From Variovorax sp. PCZ-1 (GTDB lineage Bacteria; Pseudomonadota; Gammaproteobacteria; Burkholderiales; Burkholderiaceae_C): a stretch of DNA of 64,000 nucleotides. The notes beneath the pieces are model-generated. The model did no database searches, had not been told where the DNA came from, and saw only the letters and a program-made list of their open reading frames with translations. A program made the translations under genes and the position numbers. This document shows, piece after piece, positions 29,604-33,294 of the stretch (position 1 is its first letter; each line of letters begins with the position of its first letter). The stretch covers positions 1,612,001 to 1,676,000 of the forward strand of contig NZ_JAHCDN010000001.1 in the NCBI RefSeq assembly GCF_018413605.1, written 5' to 3'.

Positions 29604-29754
29604 CTTTTTGTACTCAATGGTTAAAAATCAGGGTTTTGCCTGACTTCTGAAAACATCTCAAGTCAACCTCGCCCCGCGCATACCGTTATAGTTTCGTAGC
29701 TTCGGGTTGACCGAACTCAAAAACCTATCCATCCATCTTTCGAGGAGTTGTCCC

Positions 29755-30405
29755 ATGTTGAAAAAACTGTTTGTTTTATTTGCTCTGTTTTACGCAGCAC
29801 TGTCATTTGCTGCTGTTGATGTGAACAAGGCTACCGCTGCTGAGCTCGATGGCATCAAAGGCATCGGCCCCGGTATTTCCGGCAAGATTCTTGATGAGCG
29901 CAAAAAGGGCAATTTCAAAGATTGGAATGACCTCGTGACCCGCGTGAACGGCATCGGCGAAACCAATGCTGCTAAATTCTCCGCAGAAGGCATGACCGTG
30001 AACGGCCAAGGCTTCAAAGGTGTCGCCGCTGCTCCTGCCAAGAAGGATGACAAGCCAATGGCTAAAGATGCAGCAGCTAAGCCAGCCGCCGCAACTGCCG
30101 CCGCTCCAGCGAAGGATGCCAAAGCTGCAGACGCTAAGCCTGCCGCTGCCGCAGCTCCTGCTGCCAAGCCAGAAGCCAAAGCTGATCCAAAAGCTGATGC
30201 CAAAGCAAAAGCTGACGCTGAGAAGAAAGCCAAGGCTGATGAGAAGGCCAAAGCTGCTGAAGAGAAAAAAGCCAAAGCTGAAGCTGATAAGAAAGCAAAA
30301 GCAGATGCAAAAGCCAAGGCCGAAGCTGACAAGAAAGCTGCTGCTCCTAAGAAAGACGAGAAAGCCGCTGCTGCAGCGCCTAAGAAAGAAGAGCCAAAGA
30401 AGTAA
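29755..30405 (+). CDS. Secreted ComEA-like helix-hairpin-helix protein with Lys/Ala-rich tail
   Basis: A 216-residue protein with a signal peptide (MLKKLFVLFALFYAALSFAA), then a ComEA-type double helix-hairpin-helix domain at about 21-80 (ELDGIKGIGPGISGKILDER; LVTRVNGIGETNAAKF), which binds DNA in the periplasm in competence proteins. From about residue 90 to the end it is almost only Lys, Ala, Asp, Glu and Pro, like the TolA spacer or histone H1. The start at 29755 follows GAGGAG. A strong terminator follows. A DNA-uptake or DNA-packing role is likely but unproven. Confidence 0.82.
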   Translation: MLKKLFVLFALFYAALSFAAVDVNKATAAELDGIKGIGPGISGKILDERKKGNFKDWNDLVTRVNGIGETNAAKFSAEGMTVNGQGFKGVAAAPAKKDDKPMAKDAAAKPAAATAAAPAKDAKAADAKPAAAAAPAAKPEAKADPKADAKAKADAEKKAKADEKAKAAEEKKAKAEADKKAKADAKAKAEADKKAAAPKKDEKAAAAAPKKEEPKK

Positions 30406-30422: not shown

Positions 30423-30452
30423 AAAAAAGCCCGGTTCTCCGGGCTTTTTTTT
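30423..30452 (+). terminator. Rho-independent terminator after the HhH gene
   Basis: AGCCCGG and CCGGGCT around a TTCT loop, followed by a run of T; A-run on the left side. Confidence 0.92.
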
Positions 30453-30732: not shown

Positions 30733-33243
30733 ATGCAACACAACAACCTCGCATCCAAAGCAAAGCAGCGCAGTTTCAAAGCGGCAGGCATTTGCGCTAT
30801 TTTGGGCAGCTCTTTCTTCATGATGAGCACAGCCCTAGCCGCCAAGCACGGGGATGGCCACGGCAACGAAGGCTACGATACAGCCGCAGAATGTGATGCC
30901 GCTGTGGCAGCTGGTACTGCCAAGTTCTACCGCCCGCACACCACGCATGAGCCGCTCAAGCGCGCTGGCGAGGCCGATGTGAAAGTGCAAAAACTCTCCG
31001 ATCTCACGGCCGCCAAAGAAGCAGCAAGCGCTTTGGGTTATGACGCTGCGGGCTACACACGCGGCGCGTGTGATATCGGCGTCGGTCGCTCGCAAGGCCG
31101 CGATGGTGTGAGCGCCGGTTTGATAGGCAAATATATTCCTTACGGCCCAGAAATGGCTGTGAACGTGTATTACGACGCAGCGGGCAAAGCCGTGCGCGCC
31201 AGCATGAAGCAGTGCGACAACAATTTCAGCGGCAACATGCCTCGCCCCGTTGGCGCTGTCACCAAAGCAGAAGCCAGCGAGTGCTTTGCCAATGTGCAGA
31301 TCCCCGCCAAATTTGAGACGAAGACCGAGCAGGTCGTTAAAGTGCCGGCCACCAAGCGCTTTGAGCCGATTGCTGCCACTTTCAAAACCGTGAGCGAGCA
31401 AGTGTTGGTCTCTCCAGAGATGAAGCGCCAAATTCCTGTGCCTGCCACGTACAAAACCGTGAGCGAAGAAGTGGTGATCCAGCCCGCCACCACGCGCGAC
31501 GAGCCCGTGCCAGCCACTTACAAAATGGTGAGCGAGCGGGTTTTGGTGAAAGCTGAGAGCAAGCGCATTGAAGTGACACCACCAACCTACAAAACTGTGA
31601 GCGAGCAAGTGCTGGTCACGCCAGCGCAGAAGGTGCTCAAAGCGATTCCTGCGGAATACGTGATGAAAGACGAAGAAGTTGTTGATCGCCCAGCGACCAC
31701 CCGCGTGGAAACTGTGCCGGCTACTTTCAAAACCGTCACTGAGCAAGTGCTCTCCCGCCCCGAGAGCGTGCGCTATGAGCCCATCGCCGTTCCTCTGCGC
31801 ACAGTGCGTGAAGAAGTGGAGCGCACAGCGGCTAGCTCGCGCTTGCAAGTCACACCTGCCGTTTACAAGACGGTGACCGAGCGCGTTTTGGTCAAGGAAG
31901 CTGGCAAGCGTTTGGTCGAAGTGCCGGCCACTTACGAAACCGTGACCGAGCGCGTGAAAATCGCTGATGCCACCAAGGAGTGGAAGCGCGGCCGTGCCTA
32001 CATTGGCCAAGCTGTGGAGGTGCGCCCTCTGCGCGGCTTCGTCGTCGGAGCGGATGGCAAAGTGGCTGGAAATCGCGTGGAAGTATCTTCCGCAGCGAAC
32101 CCAGCAGGCGGCCGGGGTGTGGTCGATACTCAAATCGTTGCGGGTAACAACAGCAATTTGGACGATGATGTGATGTGTCTGGTCGCTATTCCAGAGCAAT
32201 TCCAAATCATCACGCGCCAAGTCGTGAAAACACCTGCGAGCGTGCGCGAAGTGGAAATCCCCGCTGAATATGCCACCGTGACGCGTCAAGAACTCGTCAC
32301 CGCAGCCAGCAGCTCTGAGATTGCTATCCCTGCAACGATGCAAACCGTGACACGCCAAGAGATCGATATCGACAAACTCAAAGCTGCTGGCTACAAGTTT
32401 GACGACAAAGGCAACATCATCGCCACGCCAAGCGGCGAGCGCGTGCTGCGCGCTGCCAGTCTGCGCACAGGCGCAGCCGGTGTGACCGCAGCGAATGCCG
32501 TGGGCAAAGGTGCAGAGTCTGGCGAAGAAGGCTATGTGCGCGAGATCAAGATTCCTGCGGTGTACCAGACGGTAAGCCGCCAAGTGATTGATCAACCCGC
32601 TACTGTGCGCACGATCGAAGTGCCCGGCACGATGAAAACCATCAAGACCCGTATCGAAGCAGCGCCTGCCCGTACGGAAGAGTCCACCATCCCTGCCGTG
32701 TATCGCACACAGACACGTCAAGTTGTGGATCAAGCAGCGACACAGCGCGAGATCGTGATCCCAGCCGAGTACCGCAATGTTGAGCGCCGCGTGGTCGATA
32801 CCCCCGCAACAACGCGCAAGATCCCTGTGGCTGCTGTCACCCAAACCGTGCAACGCCGTGTGGTGGATACGCCTGCGAGCATGCGTGAGGAAACGATCCC
32901 CGCTGTGTACCGCACCGTCACGCGTCAAGTCATCGACCAAGCCGCCAGCTTGCGTGAGATCAGTGTGCCAGCGCAGTACGACACGATCAGCTACCAAGTG
33001 AAAACGGCAGATGCCCGCACAGAAAATCGCGCGATCCTTTGCGAAACCAATGCCACACCTGCCAAGATCATGGAAATCCAGCGTGCGCTTTCGACAGCTG
33101 GCTTCAACCCTGGCCCTGTCAACGGCGTGTTGCGCGAGAGCACCATGCGCGCTGTGAATGGCTACCAGCAATCCAAAGGCTTGCCAGTGGATGGTTTCTT
33201 GAACCTGGAAACTGTGAAGTCTCTCGGCGTGTCGCCGAACTGA
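30733..33243 (+). CDS. Secreted protein of twenty 23-residue repeats with a C-terminal peptidoglycan-binding domain
   Basis: An 836-residue protein of no recognised overall function. Residues 1-36 are a signal peptide ending STALAA. Residues 37-189 are a small cysteine-containing domain. Then come 23-residue units of the form IPAxYxTVTxQVV-xxPATxRxxx: ten in exact register from 190 to 419, a 66-residue insert, three from 486, an insert to 606, and seven from 607 to 767. The end (about 775-836: KIMEIQRALSTAGFNPGPVN, GLPVDGFLNLETV) is a PG_binding_1 domain. This suggests a rod-like, beta-rich periplasmic or surface protein fixed to murein. Terminators lie before and after, so it is a single-gene unit. 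Confidence 0.85.
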   Translation: MQHNNLASKAKQRSFKAAGICAILGSSFFMMSTALAAKHGDGHGNEGYDTAAECDAAVAAGTAKFYRPHTTHEPLKRAGEADVKVQKLSDLTAAKEAASALGYDAAGYTRGACDIGVGRSQGRDGVSAGLIGKYIPYGPEMAVNVYYDAAGKAVRASMKQCDNNFSGNMPRPVGAVTKAEASECFANVQIPAKFETKTEQVVKVPATKRFEPIAATFKTVSEQVLVSPEMKRQIPVPATYKTVSEEVVIQPATTRDEPVPATYKMVSERVLVKAESKRIEVTPPTYKTVSEQVLVTPAQKVLKAIPAEYVMKDEEVVDRPATTRVETVPATFKTVTEQVLSRPESVRYEPIAVPLRTVREEVERTAASSRLQVTPAVYKTVTERVLVKEAGKRLVEVPATYETVTERVKIADATKEWKRGRAYIGQAVEVRPLRGFVVGADGKVAGNRVEVSSAANPAGGRGVVDTQIVAGNNSNLDDDVMCLVAIPEQFQIITRQVVKTPASVREVEIPAEYATVTRQELVTAASSSEIAIPATMQTVTRQEIDIDKLKAAGYKFDDKGNIIATPSGERVLRAASLRTGAAGVTAANAVGKGAESGEEGYVREIKIPAVYQTVSRQVIDQPATVRTIEVPGTMKTIKTRIEAAPARTEESTIPAVYRTQTRQVVDQAATQREIVIPAEYRNVERRVVDTPATTRKIPVAAVTQTVQRRVVDTPASMREETIPAVYRTVTRQVIDQAASLREISVPAQYDTISYQVKTADARTENRAILCETNATPAKIMEIQRALSTAGFNPGPVNGVLRESTMRAVNGYQQSKGLPVDGFLNLETVKSLGVSPN

Positions 33244-33267: not shown

Positions 33268-33294
33268 AAAGCCCGGTTCGCCGGGCTTTTTTTT
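33268..33294 (+). terminator. Rho-independent terminator after the repeat-protein gene
   Basis: AAAGCCCGG pairs with CCGGGCTTT around TTCG, followed by T residues; usable mainly for the plus strand. Confidence 0.93.

Follow-up and report, generated by a model that had tools for sequence, protein, structure and literature searches.

A secreted bacterial repeat protein with two arms of equal repeat number, proposed to pair as an antiparallel β-ribbon hairpin attached to murein

The window, defined here as the whole 64,000-nucleotide stretch of Variovorax sp. PCZ-1 DNA that was analyzed, encodes a putatively secreted protein with twenty 23-residue repeats, whose groups of 10 and 3+7 form two arms with the same number of repeats and not one row (Table 1). 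A hairpin topology of the two arms is well supported by the anatomy of the repeats, the equality of the arms among relatives, charge covariation between the arms and a matching strand pattern in structural models. We propose that the protein is a two-stranded antiparallel β-ribbon hairpin that is attached to murein and acts as an envelope tether or scaffold, a reading to which we assign a probability of roughly 0.7. In this arrangement, repeat i of arm 1 would pair with repeat N+1-i of arm 2 (10 with 10), 7- and 12-residue strands would alternate along the ribbon and the breaks between them would be formed by facing Pro-Ala steps. A W-K-x-G ... M-C-L-V segment would constitute the tip of the hairpin; Cys184 and Cys770 would be located at its base, together with the N-terminal and peptidoglycan-binding domains. 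The PG_binding_1 domain would anchor the ribbon to murein and the N-terminal module would hold the outer-membrane side, the ribbon itself serving as a flexible, length-tuned connection and not as an enzyme. As the arms would pair repeat to repeat, changes in length would occur by one repeat in both arms at once. Further, equal arms paired antiparallel imply that the chain folds back on itself, which brings its N-terminal part and the peptidoglycan-binding domain together at the base. The stiff rod or fiber suggested in the earlier note, if taken as a row of repeats running from the N- to the C-terminus, is thereby replaced; the description given there of an elongated, β-rich protein with a peptidoglycan-binding end agrees with the strand pattern of the models and with the PG_binding_1 match.

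Table 1 Features of the repeat-protein gene and its surroundings (positions in the window; residues of the encoded protein).
Feature	Position	Strand	Remarks
Repeat-protein gene	30733..33243	+	836 aa
Signal peptide, residues 1-36	30733..30840	+	assigned by eye: hydrophobic core, ALA-A end
N-terminal domain with cysteines, residues 37-173	30841..31251	+	no Pfam family
Cys184, base of arm 1	31282..31284	+	invariant in six A1 sequences
Arm 1, residues 189-418, ten 23-residue repeats	31297..31986	+	repeat profile
RYEPI landmark, residues 347-351, into the third repeat of arm 1 from the tip	31771..31785	+	
Tip segment, residues 419-484, DDDVMCLV at its end	31987..32184	+	
Tip Cys482	32176-32178	+	within DDDVMCLV
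Arm 2, tip side, residues 485-553, three repeats	32185..32391	+	repeat profile
52-residue insert of arm 2, residues 554-605, past the third repeat from the tip	32392..32547	+	
Arm 2, base side, residues 606-766, seven repeats	32548..33030	+	repeat profile
Cys770, base, end of arm 2	33040..33042	+	invariant in six A1 sequences
PG_binding_1 domain, residues 778-831	33064..33225	+	Pfam E 2e-12
Terminator-like hairpin 3' of the gene	33268..33289	+	consensus match only

A 23-position profile recovered 20 non-overlapping repeats in the window protein, with scores of 26-50 compared to 9.6 for the best segment among 200 shuffles of the same protein. All steps within the arrays (189-418, 10 repeats; 485-553, 3; 606-766, 7) are exactly 23 residues, and only lags of 23, 46 and 69 stand out in a BLOSUM62 self-comparison of the 10- and 7-repeat arrays. 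The earlier count of twenty repeats in groups of ten, three and seven is thereby confirmed far above shuffles; the term exact, which had been used for them, applies to their length and not to their sequence, and the first array, placed at 190-419, does hold ten repeats in register, starting at residue 189. The PG_binding_1 end noted previously was likewise recovered, scoring 47.6 bits against a Pfam gathering cut-off of 23 for PF01471, which establishes family membership while peptidoglycan binding itself is predicted. The modeled C-terminal fold matches the peptidoglycan-binding domain of SltB3 (Z 10.1, 60 residues, rmsd 1.8).

The repeats themselves had no match in Pfam, NCBIfam, PHROGs or PDB sequences and above-chance matches were confined to the peptidoglycan-binding end, in line with the earlier note, which named no described function for this architecture. 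Pfam searches with the arms of 14 relatives gave a best E-value of 0.0044, with matches scattered across 18 unrelated families, and the arms of the first of these relatives did not reach Pfam cut-offs. Repeat arms yielded 0 matches to PDB sequences at E≤1. The N-terminal domain of the window protein had 0 Pfam families at E≤0.01, no enzyme domain was found in the protein by Pfam, and no description of a mirror-armed ribbon family or its repeat peptides was found in the open-licence literature under the terms used. Phage matches fall in the peptidoglycan-binding end and not in the repeats, and a phage link was rejected; 0 of 10 viral-contig candidates were confirmed. A plasmid link of the repeats was set aside as well, three of the four plasmid matches being located in the peptidoglycan-binding end and one, in Methylobacterium, in the repeats at a site that carries no annotation.

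A contig scan for relatives gave 224 candidate stretches, of which 205 were confirmed; the 80 best, together with the window, constitute the discovery set (n=81). Arms were counted with the repeat profile and split at the tip motif, a procedure that gave 0 matches in 81 shuffled proteins. Identical match counts in both arms were found for 70 of the 81 discovery proteins, specifically, 4/4 (22), 6/6 (23), 7/7 (1), 10/10 (20), 12/12 (1), 13/13 (2) and 14/14 (1), with most 6/6 members showing 3+3 facing 3+3. The window protein belongs to the equal-armed proteins with its 10 and 3+7 repeats. The 11 unequal proteins comprise four 6/5, two 9/10, one 10/9 and one 7/10 as well as 10/8, 9/7 and 0/10 cases; eight of the 11 are read as carrying sub-threshold repeats in regular spacing while the last three (L052, L054 and L055) represent incomplete or frameshifted genes. 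A later set of 76 ORFs contained 13 copies of the discovery set, leaving 63 new non-duplicate ORFs, and 48 of these were equal by the automatic rule: 4/4 (21), 3,3,3,3 (14), 3/3 (7), 2/2 (5) and 6/6 (1). Among the 15 that failed the rule, L003 is truncated by the end of its contig, the insert of L005 was misread (actual counts 10 and 3+7), seven (L128, L184, L190, L191, L202, L207 and L211) are equal by eye with a lost tip cysteine or a weak repeat, and five (L178, L180, L181, L185 and L193) have repeats too degenerate for counting. The remaining one, L214, is a clear unequal case with 10 vs 6 repeats counted by eye, all of them basic. L214 and L198 are adjoining paralogues in one genome with highly basic, similar repeats, one being 4/4 and the other 10 vs 6. 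In L128, L184 and L190 the tip cysteine, which is conserved elsewhere, is replaced by arginine and the base cysteines are kept. With arm counts ranging from 2 to 14, the expectation of a family with variable repeat number holds.

The spacing of two landmarks from the tip is constant over N values of 9 to 14. In all 31 long discovery members, the arm 2 insert begins 73 residues past the tip motif. The RYEP motif of arm 1 was found in 23 long discovery members, always 70 residues ahead of the tip Trp, with a second match elsewhere in one of them (L048). It was not found in seven long members, and L055 lacks arm 1. Each arm of the 6/6 protein L170 has a single repeat of odd length, in both cases the third counted from the base. 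In both arms of L068, the first repeat is followed by a one-residue insertion, and these insertions do not face each other under the hairpin scheme. The positions of Cys184 and Cys770 add up to 954 vs 952 for the register of the base side. A disulfide between them is plausible, but is not claimed as the short relatives L195, L196 and L204 do not have the end cysteine.

Charge covariation between the arms was analyzed using only the 96 proteins with equal match counts (70 from the discovery set, 26 from later loci), in which the 4/4, 6/6 and 10/10 classes are represented by 33, 32 and 20 distinct rows, the window protein being part of the last. Charges were coded as +1, 0 and -1, column means were subtracted and sequences were weighted. 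With p and q denoting positions within facing repeats, an antiparallel register is given by p+q. The register p+q=21 was the most negative of 295 (4/4), 481 (6/6) and 757 (10/10) registers with Z-scores of -4.3, -5.3 and -5.0, respectively, and 0 of 400 row permutations in each class were as negative as the observed value. Registers 20 and 22 came next, with a parallel offset of 182 intervening at -3.58 in the 10/10 class. None of the within-arm hairpin and solenoid registers scanned in the three classes fell below -2.93. Parallel pairing, a within-arm meander and a solenoid were rejected as these scans gave nothing comparable to the antiparallel register. In 100 random 70% subsets per class, 21 ranked first in 93, 97 and 66 and 20 in 5, 3 and 34 for the 4/4, 6/6 and 10/10 classes; the raw mean of the 10/10 class at 20 (-0.210) is marginally below that at 21 (-0.206).

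Raw charge pairs across the arms were opposite in 72, 81 and 79% of cases at registers 20, 21 and 22, compared to 33-63% at the remaining 23 registers of the scan, and with means kept the best register was 20, 21 or 22 in 83 of the 96 proteins. The window protein alone shows predominantly opposite cross-arm charges near p+q=21, with opposite/like pairs of 11/1 (20), 12/4 (21) and 26/4 (22). The 7-residue strands carry their signal at 21 (94% opposite), while the 12-residue strands carry theirs at 20 and 22 (90% opposite each) rather than at 21, which may be due to a bulge of one residue close to the Pro-Ala steps. Register 21 gives poor pairing of mean hydropathy (r -0.47), and for mean charge complementarity alone the best register is 22.

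AlphaFold models were generated for the window protein and for L060, a 4+4 lipoprotein, and the pairing in both was read from strand ends and weak alignments. The L060 model (pLDDT 81, low pTM of 0.35) consists of a helix at 31-71 followed by strands whose lengths alternate between 7 and 12 residues, with pLDDT near 85. Its nine strands per arm obey i+j=398, with one strand end off by one, a sum that translates to p+q=21 and thus to the register found by covariation. Because both arms have an equal period, parallel and antiparallel order give indistinguishable strand ends in L060. Antiparallel pairing is favored in this model by the linker at the tip, which is 14 residues long from the last strand of arm 1 to the first of arm 2, by the covariation and by tip-centered alignments: the seven second-look structural alignments in the L060 arms are all centered at 195.5-201 (Z 2.2-2.8), and the weak arm alignments of both models are tip-centered with Z 2.1-2.8. 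The model of the window protein is of low confidence (pLDDT 60, pTM 0.27). Its 21 strand pairs have i+j sums of 952 (15, base side) or 900 (6, tip side), within 1, the difference arising as the 52-residue insert loops out. Its irregular strands are found at heights 3, 11, 13 and 15 from the base in both arms and at 20 in arm 1 only, an agreement that holds in antiparallel order, with no match in parallel order. As the alignments given to AlphaFold overlap the 4/4 class (L060) and the 10/10 class (window), models and covariation are not fully independent in these two classes; the 6/6 class was given to neither model.

Arms that pair within each protein could belong to hairpins that further associate laterally as a tube, sheet or fiber, with the oligomer as the working unit. 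A two-stranded ribbon leaves two open edges, and the first weak Foldseek matches of the L060 model include the pore-formers aerolysin and lysenin, whose stems are long antiparallel β-hairpins. However, Foldseek searches against the PDB gave no match at E≤0.001 for L060 (TM-scores ~0.1) and 0 of 206 matches at E≤0.001 for the window model, and neither face of the ribbon looks clearly hydrophobic by profile reading, making an oligomeric working unit possible but unlikely. The aerolysin and lysenin stems resemble the proposed ribbon as long hairpins but differ in having no tandem repeats and in forming oligomeric membrane barrels, and no relation is claimed on the basis of these non-significant matches. 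A single match in a viral structure library (E 3e-4, TM-score 0.07) was disregarded.

The protein is probably located on the cell wall. We infer its envelope location and murein binding, and with them the putative role as a tether or scaffold, from its domain content. The fully extended ribbon is estimated at ~78 nm for the window protein (236 residues x 0.33 nm) and ~32 nm for a 4/4 protein. For wild-type Escherichia coli under hyperosmotic conditions, the inner-to-outer membrane distance is given as 30-32 nm (PMC8824477), so that long forms would need to curve, run parallel to the wall or extend beyond this distance, and a straight radial rod across the periplasm, a possibility raised in the earlier note, does not suit them. 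An estimated length beyond that of the periplasm would also suit a peptidoglycan-anchored surface fiber or adhesin that extends out of the cell. Repeat number is often variable in surface repeat proteins, as it is here. We nevertheless regard a surface fiber as doubtful: no translocator domain was found in the gene by Pfam, no recurring neighbor was identified, and an inner location fits both the lipoprotein pattern of relatives and the domain context of L223. A lipobox-like N-terminus was detected by pattern in 20 of the 22 members whose arm 1 has four repeats and in 22 of the 27 whose arm 1 has six (42 of 49 in total); three matches among the 30 long members appear to be spurious and none was found by pattern in the window protein. 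In L223, a domain 71% identical to the window N-terminal domain lies upstream of an outer-membrane β-barrel (OMP_b-brl, E 1.7e-15; OmpA_membrane, E 5.2e-9). This fusion of a window-type N-terminal domain to an OmpA-like barrel is encoded at L223:928-1944 (-) in a genome of the same order.

Covariation does not distinguish pairing within one molecule from pairing between two, and the arms could thus form a domain-swapped dimer. We consider this improbable, as the short tip linker of L060 makes a hairpin the simplest reading and the paired pattern is already formed in the monomer model. That the arms are independent β-solenoids or meanders whose counts are equal merely by duplication of an ancestral arm is very improbable: the repeat common to both arms makes an origin by duplication probable, but separate expansion would unbalance counts that are equal from 2 to 14, and covariation was found in one cross-arm register in three classes with nothing comparable within the arms.

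The window gene is neighbored by genes for MotA/TolQ/ExbB, ExbD/TolR, TonB-C-terminal and helix-hairpin-helix proteins, which agrees with the reported adjacency to tolQRA and a helix-hairpin-helix protein; the TonB-C-terminal protein is TolA-like, with the TolA model itself scoring under its cut-off. The helix-hairpin-helix protein (window 29707-30405) has a long low-complexity tail rich in Ala, Lys and Pro. That the window gene forms its own transcription unit, as had been proposed, is plausible given hairpin-plus-T-run sites at 30423-30450 and 33268-33289, though such sites show no excess over shuffles (5 found vs a mean of 4.1, sd 2.2) and the search for a promoter-like site gave none. Around the 81 discovery loci, no cluster of neighboring genes occurred in more than 8 of 81, and the window tolR and tolA are seemingly absent from the 28 neighbor clusters listed, tolQ being masked in this clustering by an antisense ORF. 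The tolQRA adjacency lends no support to a role in common with the repeat protein.

The window's own genome contains a single match to the protein and a same-genus genome carries a copy with 85% identity. Discovery-set members are mostly labeled as Burkholderiales or Gammaproteobacteria, with a few MAGs labeled otherwise. The distribution of the family is patchy: arm profile A4 matched 47 of 369 sampled genomes of the class and 7 of 399 of the order (both E≤1e-10), 27 of 398 of the phylum (E≤1e-8, short relatives counted), with the window's genome counted in each, and 2 of 121 genomes of the phylum of a Gemmatimonadota-labeled MAG, that MAG counted. ORFs of ~190-255 aa with paired arms of 2/2, 3/3 or 4/4 (L195-L197, L199-L212) occur in the same phylum in other classes. 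As just 3-54 residues follow the last repeat in the short relatives outside the window's class, they have no room for a whole PG_binding_1 domain. Given that anchors differ among relatives, both in the PG_binding_1 end and in the N-termini, the core module seems to be the pair of arms, to which variable anchors are added. We think it rather probable that the paired-arm ribbon extends over several Pseudomonadota classes, with a minimal 2/2 to 4/4 module that lacks the peptidoglycan-binding domain.

Several known systems share individual features with the proposed ribbon. Braun lipoprotein (Lpp) and other tethers between outer membrane and peptidoglycan are resembled in the lipobox-like N-termini of many four- and six-repeat relatives, the helix of L060 and the murein-binding end, and an NCBIfam model of the Lpp/OprI type is matched by one of the 22 A3 members. 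Lpp is attached to murein covalently, whereas the ribbon would combine a non-covalent PG_binding_1 domain with a long β-ribbon, and the window protein has no lipobox. SltB3 and SleB have PG_binding_1 (PF01471) in common with the C-terminus, by sequence and fold; unlike such proteins, the window protein has no detected enzyme domain. Tandem-repeat copy number is usually held to be free to vary. It seems to us a better than even prospect that the family instead follows a new repeat-protein principle, in which one-to-one pairing of the arms locks copy number and yields a length-adjustable, wall-anchored ribbon that measures tens of nanometers in the long forms. The cytoplasmic chemoreceptor (MCP) hairpin changes length through symmetric seven-residue insertions and deletions, with classes named after the number of heptads (PMC5907407), and is similar to the ribbon as a long hairpin whose arms are altered by matched units. 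It differs as an α-helical coiled coil in cytoplasmic signaling with a 7-residue unit, compared to a secreted β-structure with a 23-residue unit, and no sequence relation is claimed.

The repeat number of one arm predicts that of the other, which, together with the covariation, gives a topology from sequence alone that is directly testable. If true, the paired-arm ribbon would represent a β counterpart to the symmetric coiled-coil hairpins of chemoreceptors and define a family missing from the libraries searched. It would also bear on how bacteria set envelope distances and mechanical links.
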